From contig JAOAIH010000002.1 of NCBI GenBank assembly GCA_026414805.1, positions 76,364 to 110,025 on the forward strand: a stretch of DNA of 33,662 nt. Direction: 5' to 3'. Shown piece after piece: positions 3,848-21,999 of this stretch (position 1 is its first letter; the number at the start of each line of letters is the position of its first letter). The translations under genes were made by a program, and so were the position numbers. This stretch comes from Spirochaetota bacterium (GTDB lineage Bacteria > Spirochaetota > UBA4802 > UB4802). The notes below the pieces were generated by a model. The model was given only the letters and a program-made list of their open reading frames with translations, was not told the origin of the DNA and did not search any database.

Positions 3848-5464
3848 ATGAAAGTTATATTTTCAGTTATTTTATTAATTTTATTAATAATTCCATTGTA
3901 TGGATGTACTCAGTCTAAATATTATTCAGAAGCAAGACAAATTACAGAGGACTTAGATACACTCTCATTGATAGGGCAAACGCTCATTATTGCCATGCCA
4001 TCTACTACAATCAATGATACAACCATATCTATTTTAAAACAATATAAGCCAGGTGGAGTAATATTATTTGGTTATAATTTGAACAATGGTTCCTGTGCAG
4101 CTCTTACACGCGATCTTCAGAACCTAGCTCTAGAATATATTAAAATCCCTTTATTTATATCTATTGATCAGGAAGGGGGTAGAGTTAAAAGAATTCAAAG
4201 CGATGTGACCCAATTTCCCGGTAATTTTGCTTTAGGGGTAGTTAATGACCCTTCAAAAACATATACCATGGCACAAATAATAGGTATTCAATTACGATTG
4301 GCTGGCATAAATATGAATTTTGCTCCTGTTTTGGATGTAAATAACAATCCAGATAATCCTGTAATAAATGTAAGATCTTTTGGATGTGAGCCAGCTCTAT
4401 GTGCTGAATTGGGCGAAGCATATATCAAAGGTTTGCAAAAAGCACAATGCATTGCTGTTGCCAAACATTTTCCCGGTCATGGCGATACCCATCAGGATTC
4501 ACACTATACATTGCCAATTATATATAAGACATTGCCTGAGCTAGAAAAAGTTGAACTGCTTCCTTTTGCAAGAGCTGTAGACGCAGGGGTTGAATGTATT
4601 ATGACAGCACATATTGCTTTTCCTCAATTAGGAATAAATACCCCTGCAACAATGTCACACTATTTTTTAAATGATATACTGCGGAAATCAATGAAATTTG
4701 AAGGGTTAATAATTACAGATGATCTTGAAATGAAAGGAATCACCGGTAAACAATCACATGGTAATGCAGCTATAAATAGTTTTAAGGCTGGTGCAGATAT
4801 TTTGCTCATCAGCTCGTATGAAAATCATGTTCAAGAGATTATAAACTCTTTACATCAGGCAATCAAAAAGGGCGATATCACTAAAGAACAATTAAAAGCC
4901 AAAGTAACAAAGATTCTTGAACTTAAACTGCGATATAACATAATGCAAATTAACAATGGAATAATAACAGCAAAACGTTATGAACCTCTTCCCAACGATA
5001 TTAAACTATTGCACCAAGCAGATGCTCTTAACGTTGAGCTATCGCGAAGCTCAATTGTATTTCATTCTTATAATTGTACTATTGAGAATTACATCATTGA
5101 TAATTTACATACATGTTCAAAAGTATTTTCAAAAAACATCAATCTTATAAATATTTTCAAAAAAGAAAATATTATTTGTAATGAGCCCTTCAGTAACCAT
5201 GTTAAAACAATTTTATTAGTCGATAGCTCATCATATTCATTGGAAGAGCTTAAAAGGTTAGTAGCATCAATACACAATTCTGAAAATAATATTGTATTAC
5301 TCATCACTGGCAATCCATATCCATACCTTAAACATTTTTCTAGCTACCCGATGCTCATGTCTTTTTCAGATACTGATGAATCACTACGACAACTTGCCCA
5401 ATGTTTGAAAGGTGAATTTTCACCAAAACTATCGCATCCATGTTTAACTGTTAATAGAAAATGA
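3848..5464 (+). CDS. nagZ: lipoprotein beta-N-acetylhexosaminidase, NagZ type (glycoside hydrolase family 3)
   Basis: The 538-residue product starts with a lipoprotein signal ending in a lipobox LYGC (Cys20), so it is exported and lipid-anchored rather than cytoplasmic like the E. coli enzyme. The GH3 catalytic domain (about 35-370) contains the NagZ signature 'KHFPGHGDTHQDSH' (206-219), whose Asp-His pair is the acid/base dyad of this subfamily, and 'IITDDLEMKG', which holds the nucleophile Asp (291/292). NagZ removes N-acetylglucosamine from muropeptides in peptidoglycan recycling. The last 160 residues form an extra C-terminal domain absent from the short proteobacterial NagZ. The stop overlaps the ATG of the next gene by four bases (ATGA). 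A GGATAT element about 11 bases upstream is the only ribosome binding site. Confidence 0.92.
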   Translation: MKVIFSVILLILLIIPLYGCTQSKYYSEARQITEDLDTLSLIGQTLIIAMPSTTINDTTISILKQYKPGGVILFGYNLNNGSCAALTRDLQNLALEYIKIPLFISIDQEGGRVKRIQSDVTQFPGNFALGVVNDPSKTYTMAQIIGIQLRLAGINMNFAPVLDVNNNPDNPVINVRSFGCEPALCAELGEAYIKGLQKAQCIAVAKHFPGHGDTHQDSHYTLPIIYKTLPELEKVELLPFARAVDAGVECIMTAHIAFPQLGINTPATMSHYFLNDILRKSMKFEGLIITDDLEMKGITGKQSHGNAAINSFKAGADILLISSYENHVQEIINSLHQAIKKGDITKEQLKAKVTKILELKLRYNIMQINNGIITAKRYEPLPNDIKLLHQADALNVELSRSSIVFHSYNCTIENYIIDNLHTCSKVFSKNINLINIFKKENIICNEPFSNHVKTILLVDSSSYSLEELKRLVASIHNSENNIVLLITGNPYPYLKHFSSYPMLMSFSDTDESLRQLAQCLKGEFSPKLSHPCLTVNRK

Positions 5465-8648: not shown

Positions 8649-9602
8649 TTATGTATTATTTTTTACATAATCAATAAATTTTGGAATAAATTCAAATATA
8701 TCGGCTACAATTCCATAATGGGAAACATTAAAAATTGGTGCATATGGATCTTTATTTATAGCTATGACCGTCTTGGCCCCTTTGATACCAGCTGTATGTT
8801 GTGAAGATCCTGAAATTGCACATGCAATATATACCTTTGGCGTAATACTTTTTCCTGTTATACCTATCTGTTTGCTATAAGGTAGCCAACCTAAATCACA
8901 TACTATACGTGAGCCACCAACTGCGCTGTGTGGAAAAATTTTTGCAAACTCATAGAGTAAACTTAAATTTTCCTTTGAGCCCACACCTTTTCCTGCACCT
9001 ATGATTACCTCTGCATCATCCATTGATGTATCTTTGCTATCCTGTGTAATGAAATCGCATTTATGAAGTTTGTCTTTGTCAGAAATGTGTATAGAAATAA
9101 AGTCTTTTTTTGGTGTTTCTGAATTAATATATGGTTCAAAACTGCCAGGCAGAACACTAAATACAACTGGAGTTGAATTTACTATAATATTTTGATTCAA
9201 TTTACCAGAATAGTTACCTCTTGTTAGCAAAATATTGTTATCAACACTTATAGAATGGATTTGCGTATAACACTGTGCATTCAATTTAAATGAAAGTGCC
9301 GGTAAAAAATCGATCGTAAAAGGTGTATGAAGACCAATGATAAATTGTCCATTCAATTTTTTAATTACTGTTGCAATGTATTTAACCAGTGTATGAGCAC
9401 TGTATTCTTCAATATCCATATCTATTATATATGTTTCAAACTCACTTGCACAGTAACTATCTCCCCATACATTACCAAATGGAACAATTATATATACAGG
9501 TATATTGCTTGTTGCAGCAATACTTTTTGCTGCGGAAATAATTTCTGCTGTAGCCGGGTTGATTTTTTTGTTTTTAATATCTGCAATGACTACAACGCTC
9601 AT
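8649..9602 (-). CDS. etfA: electron transfer flavoprotein, alpha subunit
   Basis: The 317-residue product has the variable N-terminal alpha/beta domain and the conserved C-terminal FAD domain of EtfA. The FAD-binding run is clear: 'GAGKGVGSKENL', 'VGGSRIVCDLGWLP', 'QIGITGKSITPK', 'YIACAISGSSQHTAGI', 'AINKDPYAPIF' and 'YGIVADIFEFIP'. With EtfB it forms the soluble flavoprotein that accepts electrons from acyl-CoA dehydrogenases. The start at 9602 follows TGAGG by six bases, and etfB ends six bases upstream, so the two are cotranscribed. No ETF:quinone oxidoreductase gene is in the window, so the next electron acceptor is not visible. The divergent acyl-CoA dehydrogenase gene 1.8 kb away is the obvious electron donor. 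Confidence 0.95.
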   Translation of the reverse strand: MSVVVIADIKNKKINPATAEIISAAKSIAATSNIPVYIIVPFGNVWGDSYCASEFETYIIDMDIEEYSAHTLVKYIATVIKKLNGQFIIGLHTPFTIDFLPALSFKLNAQCYTQIHSISVDNNILLTRGNYSGKLNQNIIVNSTPVVFSVLPGSFEPYINSETPKKDFISIHISDKDKLHKCDFITQDSKDTSMDDAEVIIGAGKGVGSKENLSLLYEFAKIFPHSAVGGSRIVCDLGWLPYSKQIGITGKSITPKVYIACAISGSSQHTAGIKGAKTVIAINKDPYAPIFNVSHYGIVADIFEFIPKFIDYVKNNT

Positions 9603-9608
9603 GATACC

Positions 9609-10376
9609 TCACAATACAGCATTTTTATGTAAGATAGTATATAATTCAGTCACCTTCTTTGTGGTATTGCCTTCTATGAAATGGCACTGTGTTATTTTAT
9701 GTGGCATACTAAAATAACAGTTTAGTGTAACGTTTGGTGTGATTTGATCAAGTGTGATAATATTAATTTCCTGTTTTCGGGCACGTAAAACGTTAGATAA
9801 TGAGGGATATCGTGGTTTATGAAGACTGGATTGTACTGCAATAACACAGGGGAGCTGCAATTCGTAGCGCATTGATTCCATAGTATTCAATTCACGGGTT
9901 ATTTTTATCACATTATTATGAGGCGATAGCTCAGTTACCCCAGTTGCGTAATTGTAGTGTAACAGTGCTGCAATTAGCTGCCCGGTCTGCTGATTCATTG
10001 CATCTTCTGACATTACTCCTGTAAATATTATGTCATAGTTTTGTTGTGCAAATTGTACTATTGCCTGTGAAACAATTGCAGGAGTATGTGTAATATCCTC
10101 TGGGACAATAATATGAAAAGCTTCATCAGCTCCCATTTCCAAAGAGCGACGTAATGCTTTTTGAATTCGTTGGGGACCAATAGAAATTGTATGAATACAC
10201 AAAGCTAAACCATGATCTTTTAATTGTAGCGCCTCTTCAAGTGCATATTCATCATAACGATTTATTACATATACAGTTTTTTCATCATAAACAGGTATGC
10301 CATTTTCTAACCGTAAAATTGCATTGGTATCAGGTACCTGCTTTATGCATACAAGTATTTTATATTTATTTCCCAT
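9609..10376 (-). CDS. etfB: electron transfer flavoprotein, beta subunit
   Basis: The product is EtfB, 255 residues from the ATG at 10376 ('MGNKYKILVCIKQVPDT'), chosen because EtfB proteins begin in this way and TAAGG lies eight bases upstream. The open frame runs on to 10427 but without family similarity. The AMP/FAD-site region reads 'SEDAMNQQTGQL', unlike the 'AIDGDTAQVGP' motif of electron-bifurcating EtfB. I infer an ordinary acyl-CoA-dehydrogenase partner rather than a bifurcating one. The C-terminal 'LRARKQEI' recognition-loop-like motif is present. The upstream gap to the divergent operon holds a perfect palindrome at 10521-10536 that could control both directions. Confidence 0.94.
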   Translation of the reverse strand: MGNKYKILVCIKQVPDTNAILRLENGIPVYDEKTVYVINRYDEYALEEALQLKDHGLALCIHTISIGPQRIQKALRRSLEMGADEAFHIIVPEDITHTPAIVSQAIVQFAQQNYDIIFTGVMSEDAMNQQTGQLIAALLHYNYATGVTELSPHNNVIKITRELNTMESMRYELQLPCVIAVQSSLHKPRYPSLSNVLRARKQEINIITLDQITPNVTLNCYFSMPHKITQCHFIEGNTTKKVTELYTILHKNAVL

Positions 10377-10471
10377 TGTAAATACCTTAAAATGAAACCT
10401 ATTAGTACTTTTATAGTAATTTACCAAAATTGTTTTATGAATATATCTTCCAAATACGTTTTACTCAGTAC

Positions 10472-10481
10472 TACTATAGTA
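10472..10481. promoter_or_regulatory. 10-bp palindrome TACTATAGTA upstream of etfB
   Basis: A perfect ten-base palindrome lies 96 bp before the etfB start. Its core ACTATAGT is the same eight bases as the core of the central operator-like repeat at 17906-17919. On the minus strand a weak TTTACA/TACTAT promoter-like pair overlaps it. This may be chance in AT-rich DNA. Confidence 0.25.
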
Positions 10482-10520
10482 TCCATTTAAATAAAGATGT
10501 AAAAAAAATCAATAAAAAAA

Positions 10521-10536
10521 TAACGAACGTTCGTTA
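10521..10536. promoter_or_regulatory. perfect 16-bp palindrome, probable TetR-family operator
   Basis: TAACGAACGTTCGTTA is a perfect inverted repeat and stands out by its C+G in an otherwise T/A tract. It lies between divergent etfBA and the phosphatase-ACAD-tetR-kinase operon, 8 bp before a TTGACT hexamer (10545-10550) with TATTGT at 10567-10572 (16-bp spacer). Site size and symmetry fit a TetR-family dimer. The tetR gene of the same operon is the natural candidate for the repressor. I saw no second copy in the window. Confidence 0.65.
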
Positions 10537-10627
10537 GATTTTTCTTGACTTTTTTACTGGCGTAATTATTGTGACAAATATATTGTTTGGCTGAATTATT
10601 TAAATACACTATAAACAGGATTTTAGC

Positions 10628-11347
10628 ATGAGTGAGATACTGGTTATTCGCCATGGTCAAGGTTCTTTTGGGCAGGGTGACTATGACAATCTGTCCCAAA
10701 AAGGATATTATCAATCACAGCTTTTGGCTGAATATCTTTATAACTATCGCTATAAAAATAAACATATAGATGCAATATATTGCGGAACATTAAAACGACA
10801 GCAACAGACCGTAGAAACTATCATCAAATATTTTAACCAAAACAATGTACAGCTGCCCAATCCAAAATGTGATATGCGGTTAAATGAGTATGACTCTATA
10901 CATATTATAAAAACAATATTTCCTGTTTTATTAAATGATGAGCCCTCATTAGAAGAAGAAATAAAACAAATTTATACTGATAAAAAGGCATTCCAGAGGG
11001 TATTTGAAAGAGTCATGCGGTTTTGGGTACAATCTAAAGAAAATTATGAAGGTATAGAGACTTTTGCAGATGTAAAACAAAGAGTTAAATCCATTATAAA
11101 TGAAATAATCCAGGAAAACGGTAGAGGCAAAAATATTATTATTGTTTCATCAGGGGGTATTATTGGCGCTATTGTTCAGATGGTGTTGGGCTTTGACGAT
11201 GAAACAACAATGCGCTTAACATGGCAGATTGTTAACACTTCAATGACTCATTTGCGATATAATGAAAAGGAGTTAATTCTTGCATCATTCAATTATTTTC
11301 CACATATAGAAATAGCTAATGATCCATCGCTGAAGACATACAGGTAA
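10628..11347 (+). CDS. histidine phosphatase (PGAM-like) family protein lacking the second catalytic histidine
   Basis: The 239-residue product has the phosphoglycerate-mutase/histidine-phosphatase fold. 'VIRHGQG' holds the phospho-accepting His9, and 'YCGTLKRQQQT' and 'LNEYD' follow as usual. The second catalytic histidine, normally in an 'SHGG' motif, is replaced: residues 173-177 read VSSGG, with Ser at 175. The fold is intact, so the protein may have altered chemistry, bind a ligand, or belong to a natural subgroup with this change. It is the first gene of the ACAD-tetR-kinase operon, 22 bp before the ACAD gene. A phosphatase-like protein beside an acyl-CoA kinase suggests a role on phosphorylated acyl intermediates, which is speculation. 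AGGA seven bases upstream supports the start. Confidence 0.85.
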   Translation: MSEILVIRHGQGSFGQGDYDNLSQKGYYQSQLLAEYLYNYRYKNKHIDAIYCGTLKRQQQTVETIIKYFNQNNVQLPNPKCDMRLNEYDSIHIIKTIFPVLLNDEPSLEEEIKQIYTDKKAFQRVFERVMRFWVQSKENYEGIETFADVKQRVKSIINEIIQENGRGKNIIIVSSGGIIGAIVQMVLGFDDETTMRLTWQIVNTSMTHLRYNEKELILASFNYFPHIEIANDPSLKTYR

Positions 11348-11369
11348 AACAATATTTAAGGAGGGTTTT

Positions 11370-12578
11370 ATGGATTTTGAAATATCTGATAAAATGAAAG
11401 CCATTTTAGAACTTGTCGATGAATTTGTAGAGAAAGAGCTTATACCTCTTGAACCTGAATTTGCGCGTAATGATATCAAAACAATGCTTCCTGTTCTTGA
11501 AGAAAAAAGGAAAATGGTAAAAAAGATGGAGTTATGGGCTCCTCAGGTTCCAAAGGAATATGGAGGAATGGGTCTTAATCTAGTTGAGCATGGACTAGTT
11601 TCTGAATCATTAGGAAGAACACCGCTGGGTCACTATGTATTTGGGTGCCAAGCACCAGATGCCGGCAACATAGAAATTTTAATAAAATATGCAAACGACG
11701 AGCAGCGTGAAAAGTATCTCTTTCCACTCATTAGGGGCGAAATACGAAGTTGTTTTTCAATGACTGAAGTTGATCTTCCTGGATCTAATCCAGTATTGTT
11801 AGATACTACTGCAGTAAAGGATGGTGATTATTATGTTATAAATGGCCACAAGTGGTATTCAACTGCAGCGGATGGTTCAAAATTTTCAATTGTTATGGCT
11901 GTTACAAATCCTGATGCACCTACATACCTTAGGGCAAGTATGATTATAGTTCCTACTGATACGCCTGGTTTTAATCTTGTCCGCAATATACCTGTAATGG
12001 GTCATGAAGGAAGTGACTACTTCAGTCATGGCGAAATACTGTTACAAAATTGTAGAGTGCCTATTAAGAATTTACTTGGCCCAGAAGGGCAGGGGTTTGT
12101 AATAGCTCAGGAACGTTTGGGACCTGGAAGAATCCATCACTGTATGCGATGGCTTGGTATTTGTAAACGAGCTTTTGATTTGATGTGTGCCCGCGCCAAC
12201 AAGCGCATCATTTCTCCTGATGGGAAAACACTAGCAACCAGGCAGATCATTCAGGAATGGGTAGCTGAATGTGCTGCTGAAATACAAGCTGCTCGCCTGA
12301 TGACATTACATGCTGCATGGAAGATTGAACATTTAGGACAGAAAGAAGCTCGAATAGATGTTTCACTGATAAAATTCTATGTAGCAAATGTTATGCAAAA
12401 AGTAATAGATAGAGCATTGCAAGTACATGGTGGACTTGGAATGACCGATGACACTATTTTAGCATTCTTTTACCGTCATGAACGAGCTGCACGGATCTAT
12501 GACGGTGCCGATGAGGTTCATAAGACAGTTGTTGCAAAAAGGATTTTATCAGGTTATGAAGGCAGAGAAGTTAGATAA
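11370..12578 (+). CDS. acyl-CoA dehydrogenase of the ACAD10/11 (LvaC-like) type
   Basis: The 402-residue flavoenzyme shows the ACAD N-terminal helical domain, the middle beta-domain ('CFSMTEVDLPGSNP', 'GHKWYSTAADG') and the C-terminal helical domain ('ALQVHGGLGMTDD'). The catalytic-base region is 'IYDGADEVHKTVVAKRIL', so Asp378 stands where most ACADs have the Glu of 'YEGT'. The D-G-x-D-E-V-H run is typical of the ACAD domain of mammalian ACAD10/ACAD11. Those proteins also carry an APH-like kinase, which is here encoded two genes downstream. In bacterial levulinate catabolism a comparable ACAD (LvaC) acts after a kinase on 4-phosphoacyl-CoA. I infer the same kind of substrate here. AAGGAGG precedes the ATG. 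The 3' end overlaps the tetR gene. Confidence 0.88.
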   Translation: MDFEISDKMKAILELVDEFVEKELIPLEPEFARNDIKTMLPVLEEKRKMVKKMELWAPQVPKEYGGMGLNLVEHGLVSESLGRTPLGHYVFGCQAPDAGNIEILIKYANDEQREKYLFPLIRGEIRSCFSMTEVDLPGSNPVLLDTTAVKDGDYYVINGHKWYSTAADGSKFSIVMAVTNPDAPTYLRASMIIVPTDTPGFNLVRNIPVMGHEGSDYFSHGEILLQNCRVPIKNLLGPEGQGFVIAQERLGPGRIHHCMRWLGICKRAFDLMCARANKRIISPDGKTLATRQIIQEWVAECAAEIQAARLMTLHAAWKIEHLGQKEARIDVSLIKFYVANVMQKVIDRALQVHGGLGMTDDTILAFFYRHERAARIYDGADEVHKTVVAKRILSGYEGREVR

Positions 12579-13281
12579 AAATCATACAGTTGAACTTGAA
12601 AACTATAACAATTTTAAAAAAAGCATCCGGTTTATTCTTGATGATATTGCAAGTAAACTGTATGATGACAACAGACAGCTTATAAGAGTAAAAAAAACAC
12701 CACAATCAGTTGATAATTTAAAAAGAATTATTCACACCGCAATTGCTATAAGCAATAAAAAAGGATATGCTGCCATGAGCATGCGCGAATTATCAGCAGC
12801 ATCATCCTTAAGTATTGGTGCATTATATGCATATTTTCCATCAAAAGATGAATTGTTGCATATCATTCAGCAGTATGGTCGCTCATCAGTTGAAAAGGTA
12901 TTATCTGAATCATTACTTAATTCAGTAACTGCAAAAGAAAAATTGCAAAATTTCATACGAGCACACATTTTTATAAGCGAGGTATTGAAAGACTGGTTTT
13001 ATTTTTCATATATGGAAACGCGTTACTTCACAGGAACTGAATATAACAAAACAATTGAAGCAGAATTAATAACAGAATCTATTGTTAAAGATATTATTGA
13101 ATCAGGTATGGAACATAATGAGTTCAGCCAAGAAATTAACACATCTCTGATAGCTTCCATAAGCAAAGCTATGTTGCAGGACTGGTATCTCAAACGATGG
13201 AAATATCGTAAAAGGGATGTAACTCCTGATGAATATGCTCAGGAGTGTTTTTCGATTATATATAATTATATAAAAAATTAA
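12556..13281 (+). CDS. TetR/AcrR-family transcriptional regulator with N-terminal extension
   Basis: The helix-turn-helix is clear at 'SMRELSAASSLSIGALYAYFPSKDELL', followed by a ligand-binding helical domain ('WFYFSYMETRYF'). The frame is open from 12478, but the ATG at 12556, inside the last codons of the ACAD gene, is the most likely start (241 residues, 23-bp overlap). Even so, about 50 residues precede the usual TetR N-terminus, which is unusual. That segment is charged and helical and of unknown role. Lying between the ACAD and kinase genes, it is a good candidate to bind the 10521-10536 palindrome and repress both this operon and etfBA. The inducer would presumably be a pathway acyl-CoA. 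This regulation is inferred. Confidence 0.85.
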   Translation: MKAEKLDKNHTVELENYNNFKKSIRFILDDIASKLYDDNRQLIRVKKTPQSVDNLKRIIHTAIAISNKKGYAAMSMRELSAASSLSIGALYAYFPSKDELLHIIQQYGRSSVEKVLSESLLNSVTAKEKLQNFIRAHIFISEVLKDWFYFSYMETRYFTGTEYNKTIEAELITESIVKDIIESGMEHNEFSQEINTSLIASISKAMLQDWYLKRWKYRKRDVTPDEYAQECFSIIYNYIKN

Positions 13282-13304
13282 ATTTTTTTTGGAGGATATA
13301 TATC

Positions 13305-14375
13305 ATGAATAATTATATTGATACGCCCACTGATATACGAGAAGGTGAAAAAATTGATGAACATATAATTCATGATTATCTTATTAAAAATATTCCTGAT
13401 ATAAAAGGCCCAATCGAAATTAAGCAATTTCCCAGTGGATTTTCAAATCTTACTTATTTTATTAAAGTAGGCAATAAAGAAATGGTATTACGCAGGCCTC
13501 CATTTGGTAAAAAGGCAAAAACAGCACATGACATGCATCGCGAGTATTCTATTTTGAAAGCATTAAAGCCAGTTTTTCCTTATTGTCCAACACCACTTGT
13601 GTACTGTGATGATGAATCAGTAATTGGTGCAAAATTTTATGTTATGGAACGTATAAAAGGTATCATATTGCGGAAAGAACTTCCACAAGGGTTATCGTTC
13701 ACTCCCGAAGAATTTAGATACTTATGCCAGCAGTTGCTTGATATTCAGTGTCAGTTGCATTCACTTAATTACAAAGAAATTGGTCTGGAAAATTTTGGCA
13801 AGCCAGAAGGCTATATTGAAAGACAGGTCAATGGCTGGATTGCGCGATATAATGATGCTCTTACCCCGGATGCTCCGTTATATACAGAAGTTATACAGTG
13901 GCTAAAGGAAAAAATGCCAAAAACACCTACGCGTGCAGCTGTTATTCATAATGACTATAAATTTGATAATGTAGTTCTTGATAGTAATAATCCAAAAAAA
14001 ATTATTGGTGTTCTGGATTGGGAAATGGCAACAATAGGCGACCCAGTTATGGATTTGGGCAATTCGTTAGCATACTGGGTTGAAAAAGATGATCCACAGG
14101 AAGTCCAGTTGATTCGACTAATGCCTACACACCTTGATGGTGCGCTTACACGAAAAGAACTTGTACAGCGTTATCAAGAGAAGAGCGGAATTGACATGAG
14201 TGATTTTGATTATTATTTTTGCTTTGGATTATTCCGTTTAGCTGTAATTGCTCAGCAAATATATTACAGGTATTATCATGGGCAAACCAAAGATAAACGA
14301 TTTGCAATGTTGATTGCAGCTGTACAGATATTGGAAAGGCAGGCCAAAAGTGTGATAGACAACTCAAAACTTTAA
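13305..14375 (+). CDS. APH-type phosphotransferase of the ACAD10/11 kinase (LvaA-like) family
   Basis: The 356-residue product matches the kinase domain of ACAD10/11. It has the N-lobe 'FPSGFSNLTYFI' nucleotide loop and 'VLRRPPFGKKAKTAHDMHREY', 'ESVIGAKFYVMERIKG', the catalytic 'VIHNDYKFDN' (Asp217) and the metal-binding 'VLDWEMATIGDP' (Asp238). Relatives phosphorylate the 4-hydroxyl of 4-hydroxyacyl-CoAs (LvaA in Pseudomonas levulinate use; the kinase part of ACAD10/11), priming them for the ACAD. It is often misannotated as an aminoglycoside resistance enzyme; the context here argues against that. A strong GGAGG precedes the ATG. Its TAA overlaps the stop of convergent parA in a shared TTAA. 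Confidence 0.88.
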   Translation: MNNYIDTPTDIREGEKIDEHIIHDYLIKNIPDIKGPIEIKQFPSGFSNLTYFIKVGNKEMVLRRPPFGKKAKTAHDMHREYSILKALKPVFPYCPTPLVYCDDESVIGAKFYVMERIKGIILRKELPQGLSFTPEEFRYLCQQLLDIQCQLHSLNYKEIGLENFGKPEGYIERQVNGWIARYNDALTPDAPLYTEVIQWLKEKMPKTPTRAAVIHNDYKFDNVVLDSNNPKKIIGVLDWEMATIGDPVMDLGNSLAYWVEKDDPQEVQLIRLMPTHLDGALTRKELVQRYQEKSGIDMSDFDYYFCFGLFRLAVIAQQIYYRYYHGQTKDKRFAMLIAAVQILERQAKSVIDNSKL

Positions 14376-20565: not shown

Positions 20566-21999
20566 TTATTTCTTTTTCTGTTTATGCCATTCATACAGTG
20601 CAATTGATACAGCAACAGTAGCGTTGAGTGATTCCACTGTATTGATTGGAATACGCACTTTTAATGATTTTTTGATATCAGGCAATCCAGGACCTTCTAT
20701 TCCTGCCAATAGTACAGCCTTTTGTGGAAAATTGAAATTATGAATATCTTCACCTTTCATATCAAGAGTTATTAAAGGGCAGGGGATTTCTTTGGAATTA
20801 AGTATGTCCAATGAAGGTCCTTTTTCTATAATACAATAGAAGACTGCACCTGCAGAAGCCCTTATAGATTTTGGATGAAAAGGATACACCGCATTCTGAC
20901 AAACAATAATATGTCTTACTCCAAATGCCACTGCACTTCTTATTGCTGCTCCCATATTAACAGGATCTTGAAATGGTAACATGAGCGATAGCTCCTGACA
21001 GGTTCCTTCCCACTGGTTGATTGGGGGTACCTGTACAAGCATCATTGGTTGATTTGCTTCTGTTATGTCTATTTCATTAAAGAGGGATTTCTTAAGAATT
21101 ATTGTCCTTTCTGGACCAAATTGTGCAATACACTGCATAAAATTAGAATCTAATTCAATATATTCATCATAAAGAATTAAATATTTACATAGTTCAGGCT
21201 TTGAGATTATCAATTCTTGGATTATTTTTTTTCCTGGCACAAATGTGCTGTTGTATTTTTTTGGGTCTGATGCTATTCTTTTAAATTCTTTAAACCGTTT
21301 ATTTTCATTGGATGTAATAGCAGTTCCATCTTGTGACGTTCCTTGTTTTGAAATATAATATATCTTTTTGATTGTATTAGTTAATTTTTCATATACTATT
21401 AATCGTCTTTGATAGGATGTATCAGGTAAAACATACTGCTGATTTAAAATTAGCCTATAGTGTTCGTCATTATCAATTATTTCTTCATCAACTGATGGAC
21501 CTTTCATGAAAATAATCTGGTTTTCTTTTTTTAAAAAGTGACTGCATCGCTGCATCGTTTCTTTAATTGATTCTACAGCACGTGTTATTACGCCATTAAC
21601 TTCAAAAAAGGATCTTTCTGTCACAAGGTGAGAATAAATCTCAACATTATCCAGATTAAGCTCATTTTTAACTATAGAAAGAAATTCAACTCTTTTGTGC
21701 CTGCTCTCTGCTAATATGATATGGCTTTCTGGTTGAGCTATCGCCAAAGGAATTCCGGGAAAACCCGCACCGGTGCCAATGTCAAGAAGAGGTGAAGGTA
21801 TGTGGATTATTGATGTGATGTATAATGAATCTATAAAATGTTTTAAAATAATTTCATCAATGTTTTTGATACGAGTAAGGTCATGTGAAGCATTATATTC
21901 AGTAAGTAGTTTTAAATAAAGAGATAATTGAGTAATACTCAGTTCATTTAAATAAAGAGAAGACTTTTGTAAATATTTTCTGATTTTATCTTCATACAT
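20566..21999 (-). CDS. rsmG: fused rRNA methyltransferase: RsmG domain plus SpoU (TrmH-like) domain
   Basis: Two methyltransferases lie in one 477-residue chain. Residues 1 to about 205 are RsmG (16S rRNA G527 N7-methylation): 'LLDIGTGAGFPGIPLA' (SAM site, about 71-86), 'AESRHKRVEF' and 'VITRAVESI'. Residues about 225-477 are a SPOUT/SpoU enzyme: an L30e-like substrate domain, motif 1 'DPVNMGAAIRSA' (about 345-356), motif 2 'LLAGIEGPGLP' and motif 3 'IPINTVESLNATVAVSIALYE'. SpoU enzymes make 2'-O-methyl ribose in tRNA or rRNA. There is no internal stop or frameshift, and both catalytic sets look intact. RsmG is normally a separate protein of about 210 residues. The stop abuts the convergent PLP gene (20565/20566). 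The M23 gene lies 10 bp upstream, in one operon. Confidence 0.9.
   Translation of the reverse strand: MYEDKIRKYLQKSSLYLNELSITQLSLYLKLLTEYNASHDLTRIKNIDEIILKHFIDSLYITSIIHIPSPLLDIGTGAGFPGIPLAIAQPESHIILAESRHKRVEFLSIVKNELNLDNVEIYSHLVTERSFFEVNGVITRAVESIKETMQRCSHFLKKENQIIFMKGPSVDEEIIDNDEHYRLILNQQYVLPDTSYQRRLIVYEKLTNTIKKIYYISKQGTSQDGTAITSNENKRFKEFKRIASDPKKYNSTFVPGKKIIQELIISKPELCKYLILYDEYIELDSNFMQCIAQFGPERTIILKKSLFNEIDITEANQPMMLVQVPPINQWEGTCQELSLMLPFQDPVNMGAAIRSAVAFGVRHIIVCQNAVYPFHPKSIRASAGAVFYCIIEKGPSLDILNSKEIPCPLITLDMKGEDIHNFNFPQKAVLLAGIEGPGLPDIKKSLKVRIPINTVESLNATVAVSIALYEWHKQKKK

Follow-up and report, generated by a model that had tools for sequence, protein, structure and literature searches.

Six genes in two divergent units around a palindrome

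The window analysed here is the whole stretch of 33,662 nucleotides from a Spirochaetota bacterium (assembly GCA_026414805.1, contig JAOAIH010000002.1, positions 76,364 to 110,025 of the forward strand). Between its positions 8649 and 14375 lie six genes that we read as a candidate module for 4-hydroxyacyl-coenzyme A (CoA) catabolism: a kinase of the APH fold, an acyl-CoA dehydrogenase (ACAD), a histidine phosphatase-like protein (hisP), a TetR-family regulator and both subunits of an electron transfer flavoprotein (ETF). Human ACAD10 and ACAD11 are fused enzymes that admit 4-hydroxy fatty acids to beta-oxidation. The genes form two divergent units, etfB-etfA leftward and hisP-ACAD-tetR-kinase rightward. 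All six open reading frames (ORFs) are found where a first-pass annotation of the letters had placed them, and the motifs read there, HNDYKFDN and DWE in the kinase and YDGADEVH in the ACAD, are all present.

8649 to 9602, minus strand: etfA; Pfam ETF_alpha, 1.5e-27; FAD-binding SGSSQH and QIGITGK motifs; module-specific clade
9609 to 10373, minus strand: etfB; Pfam ETF, 1.7e-27; ATG start used, TTG at 10427 possible
10521 to 10536, no strand: operator-like perfect palindrome TAACGAACGTTCGTTA, 16 bp between the divergent operons; 14-bp core at 10522-10535
10628 to 11347, plus strand: hisP; Pfam His_Phos_1, 3.4e-22; Ser175 replaces the second catalytic His
11370 to 12578, plus strand: ACAD10/11-type acyl-CoA dehydrogenase, predicted 4-phosphoacyl-CoA phosphate-eliminating enzyme; Pfam Acyl-CoA_dh, ACAD11 residues and tree
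12556 to 13281, plus strand: TetR-family regulator; Pfam TetR_N, 5.2e-12, and TetR_C_24; N-terminal extension ahead of the helix-turn-helix
13305 to 14375, plus strand: APH-fold kinase, predicted 4-hydroxyacyl-CoA kinase; Pfam APH, 4.7e-49

For tetR we used the ATG at 12556; the listed ORF start, 12478, falls within the ACAD gene.

An ACAD10/11-type dehydrogenase with a kinase of a third branch

The best PDB relatives of the window ACAD are ACAD11 (2wbi, 8v3u and 8v3v, ~270 bits) and the putative ACAD 4hr3, with ordinary ACADs reaching 166 bits or less. The active site of ACAD11 includes Arg626, His634, Arg637 and Asp753 (PMC12440821). Each has its counterpart here: R249 stands for R626, H257-C258-M259-R260 for the HCMR motif that holds H634 and R637, and D378 for D753. 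The stretch RLGPGRIHHCMR (window ACAD residues 249-260) contains the upstream Arg and HCMR, and the catalytic Asp is that of YDGADEVH. This Asp base occurs in all 116 rows counted as the ACAD10/11-LvaC-type clade, LvaC being the ACAD of the Pseudomonas putida lva operon; ordinary ACADs mostly have Glu.

Trees of the ACADs and of the kinases were quick trees without bootstrap. In the former, the signature-bearing sequences, mouse ACAD11 and three lva-type ACADs make up one group of 117 rows (SH-aLRT 98) that stands apart from nearly all ordinary ACADs; one very long ordinary ACAD (L002) is placed inside it, probably as an artefact. The window ACAD belongs to a 53-row subgroup (99), beside a 48-row subgroup containing ACAD11. 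By signature and tree position it is a true ACAD10/11-type enzyme. An ordinary short- or medium-chain ACAD, the outcome that the first-pass annotation had named as fatal to its proposal, is ruled out by the PDB relatives together with the tree. Second ACAD copies occur near the block in two related loci (L048, 14058-15994, accompanied by a tetR; L055, 14354-15571).

The kinase matches PDB entry 9o56 best (1.5e-96), followed by the ACAD11 kinase domain (2e-48) and 3dxp (2.7e-44). It keeps the catalytic Asp and Asn, the substrate-binding Arg (R176 of ACAD11) and an Arg just before the alphaC Glu, for which the published numbering, R86, is not exactly matched to the chain. In the tree it falls into a 58-row clade (99) with 9o56, apart from both the clade of ACAD11 and 3dxp and the LvaA-type clade. 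The working residues of the family are thus kept, but on a tree branch of its own: judged from sequence, the kinase belongs to the same functional family as a third branch, and is neither LvaA-type nor an ACAD11 kinase proper. Grouping with true aminoglycoside or choline kinases had been the corresponding worry for this protein. The tree contained no true aminoglycoside kinases; the PDB relatives speak against such an identity, as the best of them are ACAD11 and allied kinases and antibiotic-kinase models match weakly. One related locus (L058) has a second kinase copy near the block.

The block is conserved and keeps beta-oxidation company

Besides the window, the complete block, in the same arrangement, is present in 21 related spirochaete loci of the order. 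Because all six genes stand together in so many loci, the neighbourhood is far beyond chance, and the possibility raised earlier that related genomes would lack it can be set aside. In nearly all loci of the order tetR lies between ACAD and kinase. The block also occurs in sequences named deltaproteobacteria (L083 and L116; in L087, on a short contig, without the kinase). A planctomycete locus carries ETF-hisP-ACAD-kinase, its ETF lying outside the module clade, and in Bacteroidota, Actinomycetota, Bacillota and Chloroflexota the ACAD-kinase pair is usually found without hisP or ETF. GC-rich Pseudomonas loci (L219-L223), mis-called by the longest-ORF method, were left out of these conclusions.

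In relatives, the genes flanking the block are beta-oxidation company: a 3-hydroxyacyl-CoA dehydrogenase, an SDR protein, an enoyl-CoA hydratase, an ADP-forming ligase and a FadH/OYE-type flavoenzyme. The best NCBIfam match of the ligase is 4-hydroxybutyrate-CoA ligase, below the model cut-off. Within the block of the window's own genus we found no CoA ligase, hydratase or hydroxyacyl-CoA dehydrogenase, although these are often adjacent in relatives, so the description of the unit as self-contained was overstated.

These data bear on whether the substrate is a 4-hydroxyacyl-CoA at all. The enzymes could phosphorylate and then eliminate on a hydroxyl at another position, or on a branched or aromatic acid or a sterol side chain, leaving the chemistry intact and the 4-hydroxy assignment wrong. 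The kinase does lie outside the LvaA-type and ACAD11 branches, and the window block has no CoA ligase from which the substrate could be read; but the ACAD active site is identical to that of ACAD11 at the named residues and the ligase of relatives resembles a 4-hydroxybutyrate-CoA ligase, and we hold such a substrate to be distinctly unlikely.

Allowing up to one mismatch, ARCGARCGYTCGYT has a single match in the window, and most related loci have the site too; it usually precedes hisP or ACAD by no more than ~230 bases. There is one such site per locus as a rule, and it is kept from GC-poor to GC-rich genomes and into the deltaproteobacteria; in the window's own genome the exact 14-bp core has a single occurrence. 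The shared palindrome between the divergent operons, noted in the first pass, is real and, with the site conserved in most related loci, control through it is probable: the TetR protein likely binds there. Two further sites were seen. Elsewhere in the window's own genome, in L183 (G000:C41), a one-mismatch palindrome at about base 5196 lies between an AMP-ligase-like (acyl-CoA-ligase-like) gene and a different TetR gene, which heads a short operon, and L048 has a second operator site ~7.7 kb past the hisP start.

HisP is a histidine phosphatase-like protein with a serine in its pocket

The fold of hisP is that of a branch-1 histidine phosphatase (AlphaFold model with a mean predicted local distance difference test score, pLDDT, of 92.9; best PDB E ~1e-14, TM ~0.6-0.77). 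The canonical pocket of this branch consists of Arg, His, Arg and His (PMC12051542). HisP keeps R8, H9 and R57 as well as the acid E87, and departs from the quartet at the fourth residue, Ser175. Its fold, Arg8-His9, Arg57 and Glu87 are shared with PspA, PhoE and Aquifex HFP, whereas Ser175 replaces H149 of Aquifex HFP and RHGQ[AG] takes the place of the RHGE[TS] common in controls.

Serine stands at this position in every hisP member readable there. Such proteins were found in spirochaetes, delta-, alpha-, beta- and gammaproteobacteria, Deinococcus, a planctomycete and an acidobacterium, at least six phyla. Exceptions that keep His were met in a Thermus cluster and in the lva-type cluster L181; these phosphatases score far from the hisP subfamily. 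As a control, 27 unrelated histidine phosphatases were taken from the same order; all 27 have His. In a search of 148 spirochaete genomes, each strong hisP match that was examined adjoins at least one of kinase and ACAD, provided the contig extends far enough. By these sequence features hisP is a distinct histidine-phosphatase subfamily in which the second catalytic His is always Ser, with nucleophile and acid kept. Both the substitution and the breadth of the subfamily are apparently unreported in the literature searched.

The phosphatase-like partner had been put forward as a new component. That does not hold, because the 2019 report on the levulinate cluster of Pseudomonas citronellolis LA18T describes, in its passages on that cluster, a gene of the histidine phosphatase family next to homologues of lvaA and lvaC, with a suggested role in dephosphorylating 4-phosphovaleryl-CoA (PMC6692424). 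The same passages list an SDR protein, a CoA ligase and a PrpR/LvaR-type regulator, which set the cluster apart from the window block; they list no ETF and do not mention a His-to-Ser change, the two phosphatases being compared by description, not by sequence.

HisP may be a pseudophosphatase that binds the phosphorylated intermediate and restrains the kinase, as a counterpart of the HAD domain of ACAD10, which has an incomplete catalytic motif, shows hardly any phosphatase activity and holds the kinase in check (PMC11342911). This is a question within our preferred reading of the module, and we regard the idea as a tentative one. One of the four pocket residues is lost in every member, and in two haloarchaea an ACAD10/11-type ACAD has a stand-alone HAD protein bearing FWDIGG in its vicinity. 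Against this, a dead enzyme would not usually keep its nucleophilic His, its two Arg and its acidic Glu invariant, as hisP does.

The ETF is a lineage of its own

One clade (support 98/95) unites the EtfA proteins of the module with a single additional ETF, L204, encoded close to another ACAD10/11-type ACAD in G011. The genus has a second ETF, whose copy in the window's own genome is cut by a contig end, in another clade; the block ETF is thus a lineage apart that remains associated with the module, in agreement with the first reading, and is not the genome's general ETF. FAD-binding motifs and docking loop, the features of a functional ETF, are in place, the PRYPSL docking loop being kept in nearly all module EtfBs. 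The best solved relatives of EtfB are non-bifurcating (1efv, 1o94) and the window protein has NQQTGQ, so a bifurcating ETF is not favoured, yet some relatives have a QVGP-type loop and might be of the bifurcating kind. Within the genus (L039-L042 against window 8649-9602) EtfA is 56-68% identical, and the ACAD 92-97%.

ACAD10 and ACAD11 turn over without an electron acceptor: substrate and product are in the same oxidation state, and the flavin goes through a transient redox cycle (PMC11342911, PMC12440821). A published step that is redox-neutral and acceptor-free gives no ground for the earlier claim that the ACAD oxidises its substrate and hands the electrons on to its own ETF. The step could still be oxidative in this branch, with a flavin cycle that does not close: the ACAD would oxidise the 4-phosphoacyl-CoA, phosphate would leave to give 2,4-dienoyl-CoA, the ETF would take the electrons and a FadH/OYE-type dienoyl-CoA reductase would finish the conversion. 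A separate ETF clade, docking loop intact, does travel with the ACAD in spirochaetes and deltaproteobacteria, five relatives (L043, L046, L054, L059, L061) have an OYE/FadH-type enzyme next to the block, and PMC11342911 proposes 2,4-dienoyl-CoA as the intermediate. We nevertheless consider this course unlikely: in vitro the ACAD10/11 reaction runs without an acceptor, a dienoyl-CoA reductase is missing from the block in most loci, among them the window, and there is no obvious difference in active-site residues. A combination, in which a net-oxidative ACAD10/11 reaction exports electrons to a co-evolved ETF while the Ser-pocket protein, as a new class of histidine phosphatase, gauges or edits phospho-acyl-CoA in the manner of the ACAD10 HAD domain, is a long shot.

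Proposed 4-hydroxyacyl-CoA entry pathway

We now propose that the block is a TetR-controlled entry module for 4-hydroxyacyl-CoA, in which a kinase is followed by a phosphate-eliminating ACAD, with hisP and ETF as accessories; we put the probability of this reading at about 0.72. The first-pass annotation had likewise seen a split ACAD10/11-like module and a candidate for 4-hydroxyacyl-CoA catabolism, and this much is borne out by the complete ACAD11 signature, the ACAD clade and the match of the kinase to ACAD11. The kinase would phosphorylate the 4-hydroxyl of a 4-hydroxyacyl-CoA; the ACAD would then eliminate the phosphate via a transient flavin redox cycle, and the resulting 2-enoyl-CoA would enter beta-oxidation. 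TetR would repress both divergent operons at the shared palindrome until released by a ligand of the acyl-CoA type. HisP, probably not the productive route of phosphate removal, would act on the phosphorylated intermediate, either by slow hydrolysis of surplus or misrouted 4-phospho species or by sensing it to restrain the kinase. The ETF, finally, might accept electrons released as the products undergo beta-oxidation, or draw them from the ACAD itself when the flavin cycle stays open.

Several points weigh against this scheme. With the kinase in a third branch, the position of the hydroxyl that it would phosphorylate is not proven, and in the literature searched we found no biochemistry for any member of the window's kinase or ACAD branch. 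Because many modules in other phyla lack both hisP and ETF, neither is needed for the core chemistry. The conserved nucleophile and acid of hisP are equally compatible with an active enzyme and with a sensor, and by analogy with the published reaction a dedicated ETF would not be expected for a redox-neutral step.

It was not until 2024-2025 that the ACAD10/11 mechanism was opened up, and what the phosphatase-like HAD domain does in human ACAD10 is understood only in part. The module supplies a kinase, an ACAD, an altered phosphatase and a seemingly unneeded ETF as separate proteins, each of which can be added to or omitted from one assay, so that two questions can be put to a direct test, one on the function of the phosphatase-like partner and one on whether the flavin cycle closes in every case.

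Comparison with known systems

With mammalian ACAD10 and ACAD11 the module shares an APH-type kinase and an ACAD with Asp base, HCMR, phosphate-binding Arg and CQAPDxGN, as well as the predicted two-step chemistry. It differs in having separate genes, another kinase branch, a TetR-type operator, a dedicated ETF and a Ser-type histidine phosphatase, and it has no equivalent of the ACAD10 HAD domain. The haloarchaeal HAD proteins mentioned above (L080, 8228-9013, minus strand; L172, 2747-3445, plus strand), in which FWDIGG misses the second Asp of DxD, are a parallel to that domain that is suggestive only; one of the two loci also has a kinase, and in two other haloarchaeal loci no such protein is annotated.

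The P. putida lva operon (LvaA, LvaB, LvaC) likewise has a kinase and an ACAD10/11-type ACAD as neighbours, but lva-type kinases and ACADs lie far from those of the window in the trees. Of the operons that we take to be lva-type, L180 and L182 encode a DUF6285 protein and no hisP, L181 an ordinary histidine phosphatase, L181 and L182 a sigma-54-type regulator, and no ETF was seen in them. LvaB (DUF6285), LvaD, LvaE and the sigma-54 regulator are all missing among the window block genes. The gene order of L182 (G158:C8), a sigma-54 regulator and then kinase, DUF6285, ACAD, SDR and AMP ligase, is that of the lva operon, which suggests that LvaB is the DUF6285 protein.

Elsewhere in the window, an ORF of 477 amino acids (20566-21999, minus strand) appears by eye to be a fusion of an RsmG-like rRNA methyltransferase with a SpoU/TrmH-like methyltransferase.

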